Positions 1 through 10,979 of a DNA stretch of 10,979 bases are shown one piece after another (positions within the stretch are counted from its first letter, which is position 1; every line of letters starts with the position of its first letter). The stretch is from contig JAHIOK010000065.1 in assembly GCA_018895315.1 (NCBI GenBank), positions 1 to 10,979 on the forward strand. The letters are read 5' to 3'. This DNA is from Actinomycetota bacterium. GTDB lineage: Bacteria > Actinomycetota > Actinomycetes > Actinomycetales > Microbacteriaceae. The position numbers and the translations under genes are program-made. Under the pieces are notes generated by a model, which did not search any database, had not been told where the DNA came from, and worked only from the letters and a program-made list of their open reading frames with translations.

Positions 1-705
1 GGGATGGTCATCCCGGTGCTGCTCGTCCCTGGAGCGCCCATAACGCTTGCACTACGTGCGATTCGAAAGCGCACCGATTCGAGCCGTGGGGCCCGCGAAT
101 GGATCCTGCTGCTCGTGCACTCGCGTGTCGCCGGTGTGCTGACGCATCCGCTGGTTGCCGCCGGTGTCTTCGCCGCATCCCTCTGGGTGTTCTACTACTC
201 TCCGCTGTTCCGCTGGGCGACGGTCGACCACGTGGGACACGAGTGGATGATCTTCCACTTCCTCATCGTTGGCTACCTGTTCGTGCAGACCCTCGTCGGC
301 GTCGACCCGATCGGCAATCAGGCGCCATACCCGCTGCGGCTCATCCTGCTGCTCGCCACCATGGCACTGCACGCCTTCTTCGGCCTGGCGTTGATCTCGA
401 ACGCGGGACTCCTCCTCTCCGACTGGTACGGGGCGATGGGCAGGCAGTGGGGCGCGAGTCCACTCGACGACCAGCGCGCGGCGGGCGGGATCGCGTGGAG
501 CGTCGGCGAGATCCCGACAGTAGCCCTGGCGATCATCGTCGTATTCCTCTGGTCGCGCAGCGATGGCCGGGAAAGCAAGCGCTACGACCGTCAAGCCGAC
601 CGCGACGGCGACGCGGAGCTCGAGGAGTACAACCGGATGCTGTCCGCGCGCGCGGCCGCCGCCATCCTCACGAGCCCCAAGCTTCCCGGACGCCGCGATG
701 AGTAA
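1..705 (+). CDS. ctaG: CtaG-type cytochrome c oxidase assembly protein, C-terminal part (5' end outside window)
   Basis: The reading frame is open from base 1, so the gene starts upstream; the ATG at base 4 is probably internal. About 234 residues remain. They show four to five hydrophobic segments, conserved-looking histidines in VHSR, VGHEW, FHFLIVGY and MALHAFFGLAL, and a charged tail with RYDRQADRDGDAELEEYN. This pattern matches the caa3_CtaG family, whose actinobacterial members are often fused behind a CopD copper-resistance domain. The fusion cannot be tested here because the N-terminus is missing. CtaG proteins are membrane proteins linked to copper delivery to cytochrome oxidase. The TAA stop lies inside the start of lnt (ATGAGTAA), so the two genes are probably translationally coupled. 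The family is fairly certain from remembered sequence patterns; the substrate is not shown by the sequence. Confidence 0.85.
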   Translation, partial: GMVIPVLLVPGAPITLALRAIRKRTDSSRGAREWILLLVHSRVAGVLTHPLVAAGVFAASLWVFYYSPLFRWATVDHVGHEWMIFHFLIVGYLFVQTLVGVDPIGNQAPYPLRLILLLATMALHAFFGLALISNAGLLLSDWYGAMGRQWGASPLDDQRAAGGIAWSVGEIPTVALAIIVVFLWSRSDGRESKRYDRQADRDGDAELEEYNRMLSARAAAAILTSPKLPGRRDE

Positions 706-2272
706 ATCCTCACCCGGCGGCCAGCCAGGTCCTCGTGTTCACGAGGCGGAAGGCGTGAAGGGGTCCGCGGCGCTGCCGTTGTGGGCCGCAATCCCAGTCG
801 CGGGAGCTGCTGGAATCATCTTGGATGCCGCCTTCCCCGACCGGGGCTGGTGGCCCCTCGCGTTCGTGGGGATCGGCCTGAATTTGACAGTACTCATCGG
901 TCGTCGACTCGGTGCGGCGTTCCTTGTCAGCTTCGTCGCGGGCTGCGCGTTCTACCTCGTGCAGATCGAATGGGCCTCGCTCTTCCTCGGGCCGCTGCCC
1001 ATGGTCGCATTAGTTGTCCTGCAGGCACTGTTCTTCGGCGTCGGCGGAATGGCGATCACGCTGGCGTATCGGTGGGTGCCCCGAGCGTGCTCCGGGATCG
1101 CCGGACGGCTGGTCGTGCTGCCGGTAGCGGTCGCGGGTCTGTGGGTGTCGCGCGAAGCGGTCGCGAGCACATGGCCTTACGGCGGGTTCTCATGGGGACG
1201 CGTAGCCATGTCCCAGTCCGACAGCCCGATCGCCTCTCTTTTTGGGTGGCTGGGTGTGTCCGGAGCGGGCTTCGCGATGGTCCTGTTGGCCGCGACCGCC
1301 GTGGAAGCCCTCCGCTACCGTGGCGCACCCCCGCTCCATCGCGCGGCCGTTCCCATCGCCTTGGCCACCGTGATGGTCGGGCTACCCAGCTGGCCGACCC
1401 CCGCCACCGGGACGCTTCGGGTTGCCGCTGTCCAGGGAAACGGCCCCGCCGGCTACTTCGACTCGCGGGAGCCCGGCGACCTCCTCGCTGCCCAACTAGA
1501 CGCCACCCGTCCTCTTTTCGGCGGGCGTGTCGATGTGGTCGTCTGGCCCGAGGGGTCCACCGACCGCAGCCCGCTCACGGACCCGTACACCGCCGCCGTG
1601 TTCGACGAGGTTTCACGGCGCATGGGCGCACCGTTCGTGGGATGGGCGATCACCGACCGCGGCGGCCGCACCTACAACACTGAGATCCTCTGGACGGACG
1701 AGGATGGTGCTGTCGACTACTACGACAAGAAGCATCCCGTTCCGTTCGGCGAGTACGTCCCGGACCGCGCCTTCTGGCGACCTTTCGCGCCCGACCTCAT
1801 CGACCTCGTCCAGCGCGACTACACCCCTGGAACGACCGACCCGATCTTCAACGTCGAGGGAGTGCTCATCGGAGTGAACATCTGCTTCGACGTCGTGGAC
1901 GACCGCGTGCTGCGCGAATCAGTGCTCGAAGGTGCGACGGCGATCTTCTCATCTTCCAACAACGCCGACTTCGGAAAGTCGGACCAGAGCGCCCAGCAAC
2001 TTGCCATCGCCCGAATACGCGCAATGGAGCTCGGCCGCTCAGTCGTCAATGTCTCAACCGTCGGCCTTACCGCGGCCATAGGCCCGGACGGTGGGGTCCT
2101 CAGACAGCTTCCATGGTTCACGTCCGCCAGCCTCGTTGAGGACGTCCCCTTGGTCCAGACGGTCACACCAGCGGCCCTACTGGGAGGACAAATTGAGTTG
2201 GGGCTGTGTGGCATCGCCTTGGCCCTCCTCGCCGGATCCACCTTTTCCCGTTCCCAGAAAGGAGAAAACTGA
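698..2272 (+). CDS. lnt: Apolipoprotein N-acyltransferase
   Basis: This 524-residue membrane enzyme adds the third acyl chain to the N-terminal cysteine of lipoproteins, the last step of maturation. The N-terminal half is a bundle of hydrophobic helices and carries the Lnt signature WPYGGFSWGRVAMSQ (159-173). The C-terminal half is a nitrilase-fold domain with the Glu-Lys-Cys triad in place: E285 in VVWPEGS, K344 in YDKKHPVPFGEYVP and C396 in VNICFD. A last hydrophobic helix follows near residues 502-516. The length fits the family. The frame is open further upstream, but ATG 698 is chosen because it overlaps the ctaG stop by 8 bases and places the first helix (about 27-45) correctly. All key residues are present, so the enzyme looks functional. 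A housekeeping copy probably exists elsewhere in the genome, which would make this an accessory paralogue (inference). Confidence 0.93.
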   Translation: MSKSSPGGQPGPRVHEAEGVKGSAALPLWAAIPVAGAAGIILDAAFPDRGWWPLAFVGIGLNLTVLIGRRLGAAFLVSFVAGCAFYLVQIEWASLFLGPLPMVALVVLQALFFGVGGMAITLAYRWVPRACSGIAGRLVVLPVAVAGLWVSREAVASTWPYGGFSWGRVAMSQSDSPIASLFGWLGVSGAGFAMVLLAATAVEALRYRGAPPLHRAAVPIALATVMVGLPSWPTPATGTLRVAAVQGNGPAGYFDSREPGDLLAAQLDATRPLFGGRVDVVVWPEGSTDRSPLTDPYTAAVFDEVSRRMGAPFVGWAITDRGGRTYNTEILWTDEDGAVDYYDKKHPVPFGEYVPDRAFWRPFAPDLIDLVQRDYTPGTTDPIFNVEGVLIGVNICFDVVDDRVLRESVLEGATAIFSSSNNADFGKSDQSAQQLAIARIRAMELGRSVVNVSTVGLTAAIGPDGGVLRQLPWFTSASLVEDVPLVQTVTPAALLGGQIELGLCGIALALLAGSTFSRSQKGEN

Positions 2273-2298
2273 TTCAGTCAGCCCTATATAGTCAGTCG
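2273..2298 (+). promoter_or_regulatory. Candidate leaderless promoter/operator before the CmtR-like hybrid gene
   Basis: The 26 bases between the lnt stop and the ATG at 2299 are AT-richer than the surroundings and contain TATATA at 2285-2290, eight bases before the start codon. That is the spacing expected for a -10 box of a leaderless actinobacterial transcript. The box is flanked by two copies of AGTCAG (2275-2280 and 2290-2295). A short inverted pair, GTCAG (2291-2295) and CTGAC (2302-2306), spans the start codon. No good -35 box or Shine-Dalgarno sequence is visible. An autoregulatory ArsR-family repressor would be expected to bind here, but the site itself is an inference. Confidence 0.4.
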
Positions 2299-2892
2299 AT
2301 GCTGACCATTGCCACTCGCCTTGACGTCATGAACCATTTAGGTAATGCCTTGGCCGACCCCACGCGTTCGCCGATCCTGCTCAGCCTTTCGGAACGGCCG
2401 GGCTACCCCGCCGATCTCTCGCGTGGACTGCAACTCACTCGCTCCAATGTGTCTAACCACCTCGCTTGCGTGCGTGGATGCGGCATCGTCGTGGCGACGC
2501 CGGAAGGTCGGCAGACCCGATACGAGATTGCCGACGCGCACCTCACTCGAGCGCTTACAGCTCTCGTTGAGACGGACGCCGCTATCGAGTCAGCATCGGT
2601 CGCCTTCACAGGGAACGACCTTCGACTGCTACCCGCCGCACTCCTGCACGCCCGTCGCGGCCGACGGATCATGACGGGCAACATCGTGCTGTCCCTCGGC
2701 ATCATCATCGTGCTGCTCCCGCTAGCCCTTCTAGGGATCCTCGGGCTCGCAGGCGTCGTACTCGTGCGCGAAATGGCTGAGCTGATCGTCATCCTCAACG
2801 GCGTGCGAGCTGCACGTCGCCCCAAGCCGATCACGGCGCTTGGTGCCCGCACGGCAGCAGCATCCCCGCCGAGAGCCAACGTGTTCCGGTGA
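2299..2892 (+). CDS. Hybrid protein: CmtR-like ArsR/SmtB metal sensor fused to the last two helices of a P1B-type ATPase
   Basis: The 197-residue frame has two halves. Residues 1-91 follow the Mycobacterium tuberculosis Cd/Pb sensor CmtR: a winged helix with recognition helix LTRSNVSNHLACV (46-58), the ligand cysteines C57 and C61 at the same positions as in CmtR, and the wing EGRQTRYEIADAHL. The third CmtR ligand (C102) and the normal C-terminus are missing. From about residue 92 the sequence is instead the C-terminus of a heavy-metal ATPase. Residues 92-172 align almost without gaps to residues 582-661 of the intact ATPase in this window (AIESASVAFTGNDL against ALETCDIALMSDDL, ELIVILNGVR against TLIVVANALR), with two membrane helices at about 129-170. 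The helix-8 histidine of HE is Arg (VREMAE). ATG 2299 is the normal CmtR start. The gene overlaps lspA by 4 bases (GTGA). It is most likely the product of an in-frame internal deletion across a former cmtR-ATPase pair; whether it is expressed or functional is unknown. Confidence 0.85.
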   Translation: MLTIATRLDVMNHLGNALADPTRSPILLSLSERPGYPADLSRGLQLTRSNVSNHLACVRGCGIVVATPEGRQTRYEIADAHLTRALTALVETDAAIESASVAFTGNDLRLLPAALLHARRGRRIMTGNIVLSLGIIIVLLPLALLGILGLAGVVLVREMAELIVILNGVRAARRPKPITALGARTAAASPPRANVFR

Positions 2893-3476
2893 CGAACACT
2901 CCGGATTCGCATCCGAAAGTCAGCGCCACGACTCGCGCCATGGTGGGTGGGTCGACCCTGGTCGTGCTGGTGGCCGCCCTAACCGCGGACCGTCTCAGCA
3001 AATCGTGGGCACTGACCGCACTGGCCGAGGGAGAAACCATCCCGCTACTGCCAGGGGTTCAGCTTCAGCTCGCGTTCAACCCGGGAGCTGCATTCGGGAT
3101 GGGAGCGGCCTTCGGTCCGGTGATGGCGATCGGAATCTTGGTGCTACTTCTATCCCTTAGCTCCTGGATCTTTTGGTGTATTGCACGCGGGACTGCCAAT
3201 TGGTCACTACTGCTCCTGACCGCCGCCGCTGGCGGAGGCTGGGGCAACATGTACGACCGCATCTCACGAGCCGACGGGGTAGCGCTCTCAGGCACAGTTG
3301 TCGACATGATCGCGGTCGATTGGTTTGCGATCTTCAACGTCGCCGACATCTTCGCTGTCGGGGGAATCGCAGGATGGGCGTTCACGAGGCTCATCCGTCG
3401 GCGACCCGAGACAAAAAGAGCCACTGAGGGCGAACCAGTTCGCCCCCCGCGCTCGTCTTCAAATCCATTCAAGTAG
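2889..3476 (+). CDS. lspA: Lipoprotein signal peptidase (signal peptidase II)
   Basis: This 195-residue membrane aspartyl protease cleaves the signal peptide from diacylglyceryl-modified prolipoproteins (after Lgt, before Lnt). Visible family blocks are ADRLSKSWAL in the first helix, FNPGAAFGM, GGGWGNMYDRI, and the two catalytic aspartates D139 in TVVDMI and D153 in FNVADIFAVGG. There are four hydrophobic segments and a basic, Pro/Ser-rich cytoplasmic tail. The GTG start at 2889 overlaps the stop of the CmtR/ATPase hybrid as GTGA, the usual sign of translational coupling. LspA genes next to P1B-type metal ATPases are an established arrangement (for example the lspA-like gene of the pbr lead-resistance operon), so the coupling probably predates the loss of the ATPase body. 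The protein looks intact. Confidence 0.93.
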   Translation: MTNTPDSHPKVSATTRAMVGGSTLVVLVAALTADRLSKSWALTALAEGETIPLLPGVQLQLAFNPGAAFGMGAAFGPVMAIGILVLLLSLSSWIFWCIARGTANWSLLLLTAAAGGGWGNMYDRISRADGVALSGTVVDMIAVDWFAIFNVADIFAVGGIAGWAFTRLIRRRPETKRATEGEPVRPPRSSSNPFK

Positions 3477-4583: not shown

Positions 4584-4629
4584 GGTCCCAGCTTAAGCCT
4601 CGATTTCACAATTGGAGGCGACGAAGCAC

Positions 4630-5027
4630 GCCCGGTCTGGCGAGAAATAAGCACCACCACGAACTCCTGCGACACGCATTCGTCCACACCGTCATCGAAG
4701 ACCACTCTCGCGTCGCCGACCACGGCGTGACGGTCAAACGCGTCCTACCCGACAACGGTCCGGCCTACCGATCCCATGCCTGGCGGCACGCGTGCTCCGA
4801 CCTCGGCGTGAAGCCGAAGTTCACCCGTCGTAGACGCAACGACCAACGGCGGGATCGAACGATTCCAGCGCACGCTCGCCGACGGCTGGACCTACTCACG
4901 CTACTACCGATCCGAATCAGCGCGCCGAGCAGCACTGCCCCTGGCTTCACTTCGAACAATCAGCACCGGCGCCAAACCCGTCCTGCCCATCACACGCCTC
5001 AACGACGTGCCTGGGCTCTACACCTAG
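4630..5027 (+). pseudogene. Degraded IS481-family transposase (C-terminal remnant)
   Basis: Pieces of an IS481-type DDE integrase core can be read in two frames. Frame 2 gives HAFVHTVIEDHSRVA (first catalytic Asp) followed directly by DHGVTVKRVLPDNGPAYRSH (second Asp), with roughly 30 residues usually between them deleted. Near 4830 the reading must shift to frame 3, giving ATTNGGIERFQRTLADGW (catalytic Glu) and the family-typical ending ITRLNDVPGLYT before TAG at 5025-5027. The N-terminal helix-turn-helix region is absent, and I could not identify terminal inverted repeats. The element is inactive: truncated at the 5' side, internally deleted and frameshifted. It ends 3 bases from the ATPase gene that runs the other way. 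The left boundary at about 4630 is approximate and the family call is from recalled motifs. Confidence 0.85.
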
Positions 5028-5030
5028 GCG

Positions 5031-7097
5031 TCACGCCGCCGCGGGCTCGGGCTTCTCGCGCGGTGGGGCATCCTCGTGGTCGATGCCTTGGTGCTCCTTG
5101 TTGCGCTCGAAGTTCAGCATGCGCAGCGCGTTGGCGACCACGATGAGGGTCGAGCCCTCGTGGATGAGCACGACGGCGCCGATGTTGAGCCCGGCGAAGG
5201 TGGCGATGATGAGGAACGCCACTACGGCGAGGCTCGCGATGAGGTTCTGGCGGATGATGCGGCTCGTCGCGCGGCTGAGGCGTACGGCGAACGGCACGCG
5301 GCCGAGGTCGTCGCTCATGAGGGCGATGTCGCAGGTCTCGAGGGCCACGGTCGAGCCGGCGGCGCCCATCGCGATGCCGACGTCGGCTCGGGCCATGGCC
5401 GGGGCGTCGTTCACGCCGTCGCCGATCATCGCGATCGGTCGCGATCGCTCGGACAGCAGGGTGATCTGGGTCACCTTGTCCTCTGGCATGAGTTCGCCGA
5501 GCGCGGTATCGATGCCCACCTCGCGGGCGACGGCGTTGGCGACGCGCTGGTTGTCTCCGGAGATCATGACGAGATGCTTCACTCCGGCGGCGCGCAGAGC
5601 GATGAGCACCTGCGCGGACTCGGCGCGCGCGACATCCATCACGCCGACGATGCCGAGGAAGCGTTCGCCGCGGCGCACGATCATGATGGTCTGCCCGGCG
5701 TCGAGCGCACGTTCGTACTCGGCGCTCAGCGGCAGCGGCAGAGTGAGTCCCTGCTCGTCGAACATGCGGAGGTTGCCCACCTCGACCAGCTCGCCCTCGA
5801 CCGTCGCGCGCACGCCACGTCCGACGACCGACGTGATGTCCGTGACCTCGAGGCGGGCGCGTTCGCCCAGCTCGGGAGCGAGATCGCGAAGGATGGCGGA
5901 GGCCAGCGGATGATCACTGAGCGCCTCGACCGCGACGAGGGTTGGCACAAGCAGCTCGCCGGCCTCGCCCTCGGCACGGATCACGGAGCTGACGCGCGGT
6001 TCGCCCCAGGTGAGGGTTCCGGTCTTGTCGAAGGCCATGGTCGTGACGCGGCCGAGTGTCTCGAGCGGGCCGCCGCCTTTGACGAGCACACCGGCCCGCG
6101 CGGCGCGCGCGACCCCGGCCAGCACGGCGCTCGGTGTGGCGATCGCGAGCGCACACGGGCTCGCGGCGACCAGCACGGTCATCGCGAGGTAGAACGCGTC
6201 GGGGAACTCCTGCCCGAACCCCCAGAGCGACACCCCGAGCGTGACCGCCACGCCGACGATGACGACCGGCACGTACCAGCGCTGGAACTTGTCGATGAAC
6301 TGCTGGGTCGGCGACTTCGCCTGGTCCGCGGTGCGCACCATCTCGATCACCTTGCTGAGCGTCGAGTCGGCGGCGGTGGCCGTGACCTCGATCTCAAGCG
6401 CTCCTGCACCGTTCACCGTGCCAGCGAACACGCGGTTCGCCGCCGGCAGGGTGTTCGCGTTGCGCAGCGCGCGCTCGGGGTTGTCGACCGGCGACTTCTC
6501 GACCGGGATCGACTCTCCGGTGACCGCGGACTGGTCGACGGCCGAGACGCCCAAAACCACGAACCCGTCGGACGGGATACGCGAGTTGGGGCGCACCACC
6601 ACGATGTCGCCGATGTCGATCTGCTGCACCGGCAGCTCGACGGGCTCACCGCCGTCGCGTCGCACAAGCGCCGTGCGCGGTGCGAGTTCGGCGAGTGCCT
6701 CGATCGACTTGCTCGCCCGGCTCAGCGCATACTCCTCCAGCGCGTGACCGAGGCTGAAAAGGAACAGCAGCACGGCACCCTCAGCCCATCGTCCGATCAG
6801 GGCCGCGCCGATCGCGGCGACCAGCATAAGGAAGTCAACCTCGAACTTGCCCCGCAGGGTCGAGGAGATCGCGCCGCGGATGGTGAAGAACCCGCCGAAG
6901 AAGTAGGTGCCGAGGAAGAAGGCGAGCGGCAGACCGACCATTGGCAGGCCGAACGCCAGTTCGGAGATCATGCCGGCACCGTAGGTCACGCCTGCGGCGA
7001 TCGCGAACCACAACTCGATGCGGGATGAGCCGTGAGCGTGTTCCTCGTCGGGTTTCGCTGCGGCTGAGGTCTTCGCGGGGGCAGTAGGTCGCGTCAT
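5031..7097 (-). CDS. P1B-type (P1B-4-like) heavy-metal translocating ATPase
   Basis: This 688-residue inner-membrane pump couples ATP hydrolysis to metal-ion export. Motifs in order: actuator TGES (193-196), membrane metal site SPC (313-315), phosphorylation loop DKTGTLT with D357, nucleotide-domain SDHPLA (H396), ISGDN (512-516), hinge GDGVNDAP (559-566), and HEGST (646-650) in the last helix. SPC together with HEGxT marks subgroup P1B-4, whose members (CtpD, CtpJ, CoaT) export Co, Fe, Ni or Zn rather than Cu. There is no N-terminal HMA domain or Cys-rich tail, only a short HAH stretch (20-22), as usual for P1B-4. ATG 7097 lies 10 bases from an ArsR-type inverted repeat. TATAGT on the - strand (7110-7105) could be a -10 box giving an almost leaderless mRNA. 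Divergence from a sensor with an alpha5 His/Asp site supports induction by Co, Zn or Ni. The exact ion is not proven. Confidence 0.95.
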   Translation of the reverse strand: MTRPTAPAKTSAAAKPDEEHAHGSSRIELWFAIAAGVTYGAGMISELAFGLPMVGLPLAFFLGTYFFGGFFTIRGAISSTLRGKFEVDFLMLVAAIGAALIGRWAEGAVLLFLFSLGHALEEYALSRASKSIEALAELAPRTALVRRDGGEPVELPVQQIDIGDIVVVRPNSRIPSDGFVVLGVSAVDQSAVTGESIPVEKSPVDNPERALRNANTLPAANRVFAGTVNGAGALEIEVTATAADSTLSKVIEMVRTADQAKSPTQQFIDKFQRWYVPVVIVGVAVTLGVSLWGFGQEFPDAFYLAMTVLVAASPCALAIATPSAVLAGVARAARAGVLVKGGGPLETLGRVTTMAFDKTGTLTWGEPRVSSVIRAEGEAGELLVPTLVAVEALSDHPLASAILRDLAPELGERARLEVTDITSVVGRGVRATVEGELVEVGNLRMFDEQGLTLPLPLSAEYERALDAGQTIMIVRRGERFLGIVGVMDVARAESAQVLIALRAAGVKHLVMISGDNQRVANAVAREVGIDTALGELMPEDKVTQITLLSERSRPIAMIGDGVNDAPAMARADVGIAMGAAGSTVALETCDIALMSDDLGRVPFAVRLSRATSRIIRQNLIASLAVVAFLIIATFAGLNIGAVVLIHEGSTLIVVANALRMLNFERNKEHQGIDHEDAPPREKPEPAAA

Positions 7098-7106
7098 GGA
7101 CTCGAC

Positions 7107-7132
7107 TATACATCACGATAACGTGATATATA
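7107..7132. promoter_or_regulatory. ArsR/SmtB-type operator in the divergent ATPase-sensor promoter
   Basis: An AT-rich imperfect inverted repeat: left arm TATACATCACG (7107-7117), spacer ATAA (7118-7121), right arm CGTGATATATA (7122-7132), with 10 of 11 positions pairing. It sits between the divergent start codons of the ATPase (- strand) and the ArsR-family regulator (+ strand) and overlaps likely -10 boxes for both directions (TATAGT on -, TATATA on +). Placement, size and symmetry fit the operators of SmtB/CzrA/NmtR-type repressors, so metal-free repressor would block both promoters. The site is seen directly; its function is inferred. Confidence 0.75.
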
Positions 7133-7169
7133 AGGCGTGATTGCTCGCGGCGCTGGCTCGTCGGGCACA

Positions 7170-7538
7170 ATGGTGCGCGTGAGGACTTCGGAGGCAGCAC
7201 ATCAGCACGAGCTGCTGAGCAAGTCCGACGCGGAACGACTCGCCGAGCTTATGCACGCCCTGGCCTCACCCGTGCGGCTACGGATTCTGAGCGCGCTGCG
7301 CGGGGGACCGATCACCGTCACCGAGCTGACCGAGCGGCTCGGCCTCGGGCAGACAACGGTGTCGAACCACCTGCGGCTCCTGCGACACCTCAGCTTGGTG
7401 GACGGCGACCGCCAGGGGCGCCACATCTACTACTCGCTGTTCGACGAGCACGTCGTCGACCTGCTCGACGACGCGGTCGGTCACGTGGTGCACCTACCGC
7501 GGATTGGCGAGCGCGGCGCCGGCGGTCTATCGATTTAG
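7170..7538 (+). CDS. ArsR/SmtB-family metal sensor with alpha5 site (NmtR/CzrA-like)
   Basis: This 122-residue winged-helix repressor has the ArsR core ALASPVRLRILSALRGGPIT, the recognition helix LGQTTVSNHLRLLRHLSLV and the wing GDRQGRHIYYSLF. The last helix carries D92-x-H94 and H105-x-x-H108 (FDEHVV...GHVVHL). This is exactly the D-x-H-x10-H-x2-H spacing of the alpha5 sites in CzrA, SmtB and NmtR, which sense Zn, Co or Ni. An N-terminal AHQHELL adds possible ligands, as NmtR also uses an N-terminal His. The frame can be opened at GTG 7137, but the likely -10 box (7127-7132) puts the transcript start at or beyond that codon, so ATG 7170 is preferred; GTG 7179 is also possible. It probably represses itself and the divergent P1B-4 ATPase through the inverted repeat between them. 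Confidence 0.92.
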   Translation: MVRVRTSEAAHQHELLSKSDAERLAELMHALASPVRLRILSALRGGPITVTELTERLGLGQTTVSNHLRLLRHLSLVDGDRQGRHIYYSLFDEHVVDLLDDAVGHVVHLPRIGERGAGGLSI

Positions 7539-7932: not shown

Positions 7933-8832
7933 ATGCTCCCGAGCAGTATCCCCAGCCCGCCTCCGGCGTGGGCGCAGTTTGAGCTGGGCCCGCTGACGAT
8001 CCACACCTACGCGCTCTGCATTCTGACGGGGATCATCGCTGCGGTCATCATCTCGCAACGCCGACTGTCTCGGCGGGGCGCCGACAACGGCGTGGTGCTC
8101 GACATCATCATCTGGGCGGTGCCGCTTGGGATCGTCGGGGCACGGTTCTATCACGTGTTCACGCACATGGGGGACTATTTCTTCCCCGGTGCGAATCTTT
8201 GGGACATCTTCGCGATCTGGGATGGTGGCAATGCCCTTTACGGCTCGCTGCTGGGGGGCGCGCTTGGTGCCTACATCGGGTGCCGACGGGCCGGCATCCG
8301 GTTCTGGTCCTTCGCCGACGCATTGGCTCCGGCGATGCTGGTGGCACAGTCGATCGGGCGGATCGGTAACTACTTCAATCACGAGTTGTTCGGATTGCCG
8401 ACGACGCTGCCGTGGGGGTTGGAGATCCTGCCGACCGACCCGATGTTCCCGAAGGAGCTACCGGCGGGGACGCTGTTTCACCCATTGTTTTTGTACGAGA
8501 TCATCTGGAACCTGGTCGGGGTTGGGATCATCCTGCTCCTCGAGCGCCGGTTCTCATTGCGGTGGGGCCGCACTTTCGGGTTGTACTTGATCTGGTACGG
8601 ACTCGGTCGCAGCTGGCTTGAGGCGATCAGAATCGATCCGACCAGCGACGCGCCGCTCGGCATCCCGGCGAACATTTGGGCCTCATTGGTAGCGATCATT
8701 CTCGGGGTGATCTTGTTCATTGTGCAGAGGCGCAGGCACCCCGAACCTGAGGAGTCGGTATATCGGGGAGGGCGGGAGCCCCGACTGCTAGCTGCACCGA
8801 CATCACGACCGAGAAGTCAGTCCGCCCGGTAA
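7933..8832 (+). CDS. lgt: Phosphatidylglycerol:prolipoprotein diacylglyceryl transferase
   Basis: This 299-residue membrane enzyme transfers diacylglycerol from phosphatidylglycerol to the lipobox cysteine, the first step of lipoprotein maturation. The Lgt signature is complete as GRIGNYFNHELFG (142-154), with R143, N146, E151 and G154 in the positions known to matter in the E. coli enzyme. Other family blocks are HTYALCILTG (24-33), IVGARFYHV (67-75), GNALYGSLLGG (99-109) and YGLGRSWLEAIRID near residues 222-235. About seven hydrophobic segments are visible. The C-terminal 45 residues form an Arg/Pro/Ser-rich cytoplasmic tail, common in actinobacterial Lgt. The ATG at 7933 follows a strong GGAGG and places the N-terminal helix correctly. 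It appears intact and may have its own promoter in the long upstream spacer. Confidence 0.95.
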   Translation: MLPSSIPSPPPAWAQFELGPLTIHTYALCILTGIIAAVIISQRRLSRRGADNGVVLDIIIWAVPLGIVGARFYHVFTHMGDYFFPGANLWDIFAIWDGGNALYGSLLGGALGAYIGCRRAGIRFWSFADALAPAMLVAQSIGRIGNYFNHELFGLPTTLPWGLEILPTDPMFPKELPAGTLFHPLFLYEIIWNLVGVGIILLLERRFSLRWGRTFGLYLIWYGLGRSWLEAIRIDPTSDAPLGIPANIWASLVAIILGVILFIVQRRRHPEPEESVYRGGREPRLLAAPTSRPRSQSAR

Positions 8833-9919: not shown

Positions 9920-10979
9920 ATGAAACCGGGCAGCGCGATCGAGCAGCATATTGCAGTTTTTGGCGAGAGCGGCAGCGGCAAAACCGTCCTGCTGTCCTCG
10001 TTCTACGGGGCGGCGCAGGAGCCCGAAAACATCAAGAGCAGCCGCTTCAATGTCGTGGCCGAGAACCCCACTCAGGGAACCCAGCTTTCTCAGAATTATC
10101 TCGGCATGAAGAATTCAGCGAAGGTACCCGCGCAAACTCGCTTGTCCGCCAAGTCGTATTCGTTCTTGATCAAGTTGAAGGCTGATCCCGCAGCGCCGGC
10201 GGCCAAAGGCACGACTCACAACGCGCTACGTCTGGTTTGGCACGACTACCCCGGTGAGTGGTTCGAGCAAGACGTGAGCGGGCCAGAGGAAGCACAGCGA
10301 AGGGTCGACACCTTCCGCGCCCTGCTGGGTTCTGACGTAGCGCTCCTTCTTGTGGACGGTCAGCGCCTGTTGGAGAACGCAGGAGAAGAAGAGCGCTATC
10401 TGAAGTCGTTGCTGACCAATTACCGCAGCCAACTCCTTTTGCTGAAGGATGAGCTGCTTGTGGACGGCAAACCGCTAGTCCGATTCCCTCGCATCTGGAT
10501 CATGGCGTTGTCGAAGGCTGACCTGCTGTCGAGTCTGAACGTGACCGCGTTCAAGGAACTTCTTCAAGAGAAGGTCGGCGGCGAGATCAACGAACTGACC
10601 GAAACCATCGCAGGGATGGTCGAAGGAAAAGCCGCGCTCTCTGTTGGCGAAGACTTCGTCTGCCTCTCGTCAGCGAAGTTCACCACAGGCAAGATCGAGG
10701 TCACCAAGCGCGTGGGCCTTGACCTGATCCTGCCCCTCGCCGCGGTACTCCCGTTCGAACGACACCTTCATTGGGCCGAGATCATGGAGGTCCCCAGAAA
10801 AGTGGCCGTGGAGCTGATGGTGGTCGTCGAAGAAGTGGCCGTCGCCGTGGGAGCTGTTGGATTGATAGCCGCCAAGTTGATCGGAACGAAGAGCAAGGCT
10901 CTTGCGGCGGTGGGCCTCCTAGTGAGCCGCTTTGGCCCGGACGTAGCGAAGCTGGTGAAAAACAAACTGATGCAGGCCA
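9920..10979 (+). CDS. P-loop GTPase-like protein with DYPGEW switch, 3' end outside window
   Basis: The frame is open from ATG 9920 to the last base (353 residues shown). GTPase motifs are visible in order: Walker A/G1 GESGSGKT (15-22), G3 HDYPGEWF with DxxG at 109-112, a hydrophobic strand ending in a short acidic turn, VALLLVDGQ (140-148), G4-like SKAD (198-201) and G5-like LSSAKF (249-254). DYPGEW plus a GxSGSGKT loop recalls the YcjX/DUF463 family and the double-GTPase (DO-GTPase) proteins of bacterial conflict systems. I cannot decide between them, and a second domain may lie beyond the window. Residues about 295-347 form hydrophobic or amphipathic helices (VELMVVVEEVAVAVGAVGLI) that could bind membrane or a partner. 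No clear ribosome site precedes the ATG. Codon use looks less GC-biased than in the left-hand genes, suggesting separate acquisition. Role unknown. Confidence 0.8.
   Translation, partial: MKPGSAIEQHIAVFGESGSGKTVLLSSFYGAAQEPENIKSSRFNVVAENPTQGTQLSQNYLGMKNSAKVPAQTRLSAKSYSFLIKLKADPAAPAAKGTTHNALRLVWHDYPGEWFEQDVSGPEEAQRRVDTFRALLGSDVALLLVDGQRLLENAGEEERYLKSLLTNYRSQLLLLKDELLVDGKPLVRFPRIWIMALSKADLLSSLNVTAFKELLQEKVGGEINELTETIAGMVEGKAALSVGEDFVCLSSAKFTTGKIEVTKRVGLDLILPLAAVLPFERHLHWAEIMEVPRKVAVELMVVVEEVAVAVGAVGLIAAKLIGTKSKALAAVGLLVSRFGPDVAKLVKNKLMQA

Follow-up and report, generated by a model that had tools for sequence, protein, structure and literature searches.

The regulator CmtR and the P1B-type ATPase encoded beside it are the nearest known relatives of the two halves of the protein discussed here. 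Presumably C57 and C61 are metal ligands of CmtR, and we take a cysteine near residue 102 to be the third. Our alignments were built from fetched loci, with matches containing gaps, stops or less than 85% coverage removed and duplicates collapsed; 100 cmtR and 39 ATPase-tail sequences remained, among them the copy on contig C162 of the assembly studied here. C57 and C61 are present in all 100 distinct relatives, and a cysteine lies at positions 100-104 in 98 of them (at exactly 102 in 94); the other two are L054, which ends at a contig edge, and L105, which has a different tail. We note that the latter, a CmtR of a Micropruina MAG read from position 5001 onward, is a closed reading frame whose tail lacks the third cysteine. 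A literature search for a CmtR with Cys102 found none. One CmtR is reported to have been modelled on the MerR-family regulator ZntR (PMC3378830); that model is set aside here.

The operon is seen in a relative, L036, which is a contig from a Salinibacterium MAG; there lnt, cmtR and a P1B ATPase gene follow one another. Across the 34 loci in which both parts were found, cmtR is separated from the end of the ATPase gene by 1991-2470 bp in 32, the two exceptions (L042 and L115) having the parts 5 and 11 kb apart. In L115, CmtR (12900-13466) is directly followed by a different membrane protein, which we take to be CadD-like; CmtR thus occurs alongside other pumps as well.

The fusion gene and its parent operon

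The window analysed here, the whole of contig C460 (10,979 nucleotides), carries on its forward strand an open reading frame at 2299-2892 encoding 197 amino acids, in which residues 1-92 belong to a CmtR-type regulator and residues 93-197 carry the final pair of membrane helices from a P1B ATPase. It lies inside a longer frame that begins with GTG 2206, but the match to CmtR points to ATG 2299 as the start. The CmtR-derived part (2299-2573, forward strand) contains the winged helix with C57 and C61, as an earlier note on this DNA had recognised from the letters alone. It matches the NCBIfam model NF047906 over residues 1-100 (of 104; E 1.3e-42) with 143.9 bits, below the family cut-off of 150 and the 173.6 bits of the L036 CmtR. 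Pfam HTH_5 scores 44.2 bits against a cut-off of 22, so the winged helix of the family is present, and phmmer aligns residues 1-98 with the CmtR of 2JSC (E 6.8e-28).

The ATPase-derived part (2575-2892, forward strand) comprises the stalk, the last two membrane helices, the tail and the stop codon, as judged from DNA identity to L036 and from TIGR01512 (cadmium P-type ATPase). The end of that model, positions 402-493 of 494, matches residues 80-172 of the fusion at E 3.8e-15, a partial match far under the family's whole-protein cut-off. Hydropathy in 19-residue windows exceeds 1.6 across residues 122 to 169, and together with TIGR01512 and the 39 aligned tails it identifies the last transmembrane helix pair of a P1B-type ATPase. 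Pfam gives no match to the E1-E2 ATPase or HAD hydrolase domains in the fusion, both of which are found in the second ATPase of the window (5031-7097, reverse strand). The earlier note had aligned the tail with this second ATPase. The tail does align with its residues 585-659, with one gap and a local score of 107 (best of 200 shuffles 60), but we reject this gene as the source: it is a distant paralogue, and the ATPase of the L036 CmtR operon aligns far better, without gaps over 100 residues, at a score of 417 (best of 200 shuffles 68).

Comparison with L036 gives the event its outline. Window positions 719-2573 correspond to L036 3419-5275 at 80.5% DNA identity, and 2575-2850 to 7106-7381 at 87%; the left match stops at 2573 (L036 5275) and the right begins at 2575 (L036 7106). 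In register, the 1829 bp (2105 - 276) between the two matches in L036 are absent from the window, where the spacing from cmtR to the ATPase end is 276 bp. The L036 matches, the spacing and a base-by-base display place the junction at 2574-2575 (forward strand), uncertain by a base or two. CmtR-type DNA can be followed to roughly codon 92, and D93 is the first residue of clear ATPase origin, which bears out in essence, with a slight shift, the junction at codon 91-92 given in the earlier note. Its suggestion that the body of the ATPase had been deleted in frame is borne out as well: the relative L036, with its matching upstream gene order, and the spacing in 32 of 34 loci lend good support to a history in which the stretch from cmtR to the ATPase end lost the body of the pump gene while the overlap with lspA was kept. 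Since cmtR and the ATPase gene occupy different frames in L036, we infer that a random deletion would join genes of this arrangement in frame about one time in three, and the open frame alone is hence no sign of function.

The surroundings of the frame have stayed largely as they were. Upstream, lnt (apolipoprotein N-acyltransferase; 563-2272, forward strand; PF20154, PF00795), which also precedes the cmtR-ATPase pair in L036, opens at 563 with homology only from about residue 80, and the lnt of L036 matches at 82%. Between and across the two genes lies a putative cmtR-type promoter and operator-like region (2271-2306, forward strand) with TCAG and ATGCTGAC elements. The upstream consensus of 98 relatives reads tca........tgtat.gTCAg.g.aTGCTGAC (capitals at least 80%, small letters at least 60%); the window retains TATAGTCAG and ATGCTGAC from it and has TA in place of TG. 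TATAGT lies at 2287-2292, six bases before the ATG, a leaderless layout; a generic sigma-70 scan found no site. We note that the block tgtat.gTCAg.g.aTGCTGAC enters the first codons of cmtR, an operator-like block thus overlapping the coding start. Downstream, the frame stays open to a TGA stop codon that overlaps the GTG of lspA (signal peptidase II; 2889-3476, forward strand; PF01252, E 3.9e-22) as GTGA, the clean frame and kept coupling to lspA that the earlier note had read, and translational coupling from the fusion to lspA may follow from this overlap. That lspA can follow a cmtR-ATPase pair holds for L149 and L079, but not in general: in L036 the ATPase is followed by no lspA match, and L035 and L132 have lspA between lnt and cmtR. 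One report lists both cmtR and lspA within the same genomic islands (PMC12467314).

Several other features of the window may be recorded here. Three lipoprotein-maturation genes, lnt, lspA and lgt (563-3476 and 7933-8832), surround metal-resistance genes on one contig. The second P1B ATPase (TIGR01525, TIGR01512) is divergent from an ArsR-type regulator at 7137-7538, and between it and a cytochrome c assembly gene lies a frameshifted rve-type transposase remnant (4620-5027, forward strand; Pfam rve E 3.6e-6 and rve_3 E 0.0047, both under their cut-offs), presumably IS481-like. At 9920-10979 a gene cut by the contig end matches Double-GTPase 2 (PF19993, E 1.1e-9).

Occurrence of the junction

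The junction is a real event, and so far it is unique among the genomes, plasmids, phages and viral contigs searched. A 100-residue junction piece was compared with 366 genomes of the genus, 398 of the family and 396 of the order, overlapping sets that include the genome itself (E limits 1e-25, 1e-24 and 1e-24); it was spanned only in its own genome, with at most 12-13 candidates scored per genome, so that a strongly diverged fusion could escape. The earlier note had proposed looking for the junction in other strains; in these sets the other matches (G258, G460 and G530) are to the ATPase side only. Within its own genome, a pattern search allowing up to three mismatches finds the junction at one place.

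In a scan of genome contigs, the best 80 of 545 matches all fall inside residues 1-115. One candidate among the matches listed for 148 genomes (its own included), G112, extends over residues 2-165 with a stop; it is no fusion but an entire CmtR with another membrane protein behind it. Plasmid matches repeat the two-piece picture, as in the Cryobacterium plasmid pA28BH2 (L149), where cmtR, the ATPase gene and lspA follow one another; none of the 175 plasmid records with a match to the query covers 80% of it, nor does any of the 63 found by DNA. Two phage records matched, neither covering 80%, and in viral contigs a single locus matched over residues 1-98 only, the junction not being covered.

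Metal ligands, conservation and decay

C57 and C61 are the only cysteines of the fusion; the third ligand is lost, as the earlier note had held. On the ATPase side, the TM8 histidine found in all 39 tails is an arginine here. With both the pump and the third ligand gone, the sequence indicates that metal export by the fusion's own operon is lost and that metal sensing is likely impaired.

Signs of decay are mixed, in that the CmtR part is unusually changed at conserved positions and the tail as a whole is not. At the 51 CmtR positions conserved in at least 95% of relatives the fusion departs four times (R13H, R16N, R25P and L58V), against at most three in any of the 100 relatives. At 90% conservation it departs five times, equalled by one relative; with the window sequence itself in the pool, one control ties with it at four, and at 99% conservation its three departures stand against two in the best control. 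In the model built from CmtR rows P25 falls within the opening turn of a helix, a place that usually accommodates proline. The next-most-departing relatives, L115:12900 and L118:15718, have no P1B ATPase match after them in the fetched stretch. The tail has one real departure at conserved positions, inside the control range of 0-6, a further one at residue 93 being an artefact of the M forced at the first column.

Substitution rates, which the earlier note had proposed comparing between the halves, do not settle the question of decay. Against L036 the tail has five amino-acid changes and an NG86 dN/dS of 0.066 (median of 409 control pairs 0.187), and the CmtR part a dN/dS of 0.159 (median of 325 pairs 0.128). 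One-ratio branch lengths for the CmtR part are 0.73-0.96 for the window and 0.13-0.50 for L036, whereas lnt shows no such lengthening (0.45 and 0.55). In codon fits the CmtR part has a branch omega of 0.08-0.15 against a background of 0.03-0.05, a difference that is not significant (LRT 0.7-2.9), and the fit to 13 sequences rejects omega = 1 (LRT 30); both parts together give 0.057 against 0.038 (LRT 1.2). For the tail, omega lies at its upper limit in the first fit and in two of three later ones (LRT 1.6, 1.8, 4.7 and 2.0), and the one value above 3.84 is not trusted, as an estimate at the limit on a very short branch. The omega of lnt rises similarly, 0.126 against 0.040 (LRT 3.5); the lnt fits made with L035 and with L132 coincide and are hence not independent.

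An open frame, promoter-like elements mostly kept, an undecayed tail and a CmtR omega below 1 leave two readings, a recent deletion or selection acting on the fusion. Most simply, the deletion would have happened fairly recently and the gene would have had little time to decay.

Scar or membrane-anchored regulator

The earlier note had left open whether the gene is a neutral scar or a new membrane-bound metal sensor, and of these the scar is favoured, nothing found positively supporting the sensor. We suggest that the fusion is best explained, and quite probably so, as the in-frame deletion scar of a lost pump, its product being mainly a tolerated remnant. Illegitimate recombination would have deleted about 1.8 kb within the lnt-cmtR-ATPase operon. 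With this stretch would have gone the last part of cmtR, third metal ligand included, and almost the whole P1B ATPase, the remaining ends falling in frame by chance. The fusion would probably still be transcribed from the retained CmtR-type promoter, reading on into lspA. In the protein made from it, two membrane helices would tether the DNA-binding domain of CmtR, now without a pump, and at most it would repress its own promoter weakly and regardless of metal. Read-through to lspA may be its remaining use. A second cmtR-ATPase pair on contig C162, together with the P1B ATPase and its ArsR-type regulator (5031-7538), suggests that loss of the pump may have been tolerable.

It is less probable, and in our view doubtful, that the fusion is a working membrane-anchored CmtR, its winged helix facing the cytosol and controlling the gene's own promoter, with a response to metal that is altered because it would depend on C57 and C61 alone. 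The topology would suit this, since in P1B ATPases the segment preceding the last helix pair is cytosolic, and the tail retains its flanking Arg-rich stretches; the promoter elements are mostly kept, the tail is little changed and the omega of the CmtR part is below 1. Structure prediction is partly favourable: from CmtR rows the winged helix is predicted well (block pLDDT 84-92 over residues 21-80, the model being good for this part only), 2jsc being the best Foldseek match. From ATPase rows a confident helix is predicted (pLDDT 96-97, residues 131-170), for which no PDB match was found at E 0.001. Each of the two AlphaFold models gives one long helix without resolving a hairpin, however, and the membrane helix pair is predicted from homology and hydropathy rather than from these models. 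Also against such a regulator are its single occurrence, the lost third ligand, the changes at conserved CmtR positions and the lack of an adjoining pump gene left to regulate; a narrow literature search found no description of a CmtR fused to an ATPase tail. The evolutionary claim that goes with it, that a single deletion made a soluble CmtR into a membrane-tethered one-component regulator by using the terminal helix pair of its target pump, would seem improbable on the same evidence.

Very unlikely, to our mind, is a metal-blind or dominant-negative CmtR fragment that goes on repressing promoters of the CmtR type, both the one in front of it and the one of the C162 copy. The DNA-binding part is largely kept, and the assembly contains the second cmtR, whose product has C57, C61 and a tail rich in cysteines; but C162 may be another replicon or mis-binned, and substitutions at conserved sites may make for poorer dimer or DNA contacts. 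An assembly or binning artefact, with cmtR wrongly joined to the 3' end of an ATPase gene in a fragmented MAG, is equally unlikely: the assembly is in 461 contigs and 72.84% complete, and the cmtR-ATPase copy on C162 is truncated at a contig end, but the regulator there has a protein identity of only 71%, one relative, L036, matches to the left and to the right of the join, on the left running on through lnt, and the join shares no bases with L036, one with L041 and up to three when relatives are combined (six displayed), the 71-base breakpoint regions of L036 having a longest common stretch of six, so that with little or no homology an illegitimate deletion is favoured and collapse in a k-mer graph unlikely.

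Read as the scar of a lost pump, the locus shows neatly how a metal pump can be lost in frame while the gene behind it stays readable, and it calls for caution in annotation, as the gene would be called CmtR or ATPase and is in full neither. If the product were functional, it would mean that a deletion within a regulator-transporter operon can yield a membrane-anchored regulator in one step.

Set beside the described systems, the first 92 residues are like CmtR (Rv1994c type; NF047906; 2JSC) in the winged helix, C57 and C61, but the protein lacks the tail with the third cysteine, falls under the NF047906 cut-off and carries a membrane helix pair instead. With the P1B Cd/Pb/Zn-type ATPase of CmtR operons (TIGR01512; solved relative 7QBZ) it shares the C-terminal stalk, the last two membrane helices and the tail, and it differs in lacking the earlier helices and the actuator, phosphorylation and nucleotide domains, and in the arginine at the TM8 histidine. 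Finally, as in the cmtR-ATPase-lspA operon of the Cryobacterium plasmid pA28BH2, the regulator comes first and lspA last, whereas in the window the ATPase has lost its body and what is left of it, the end, is joined to cmtR.
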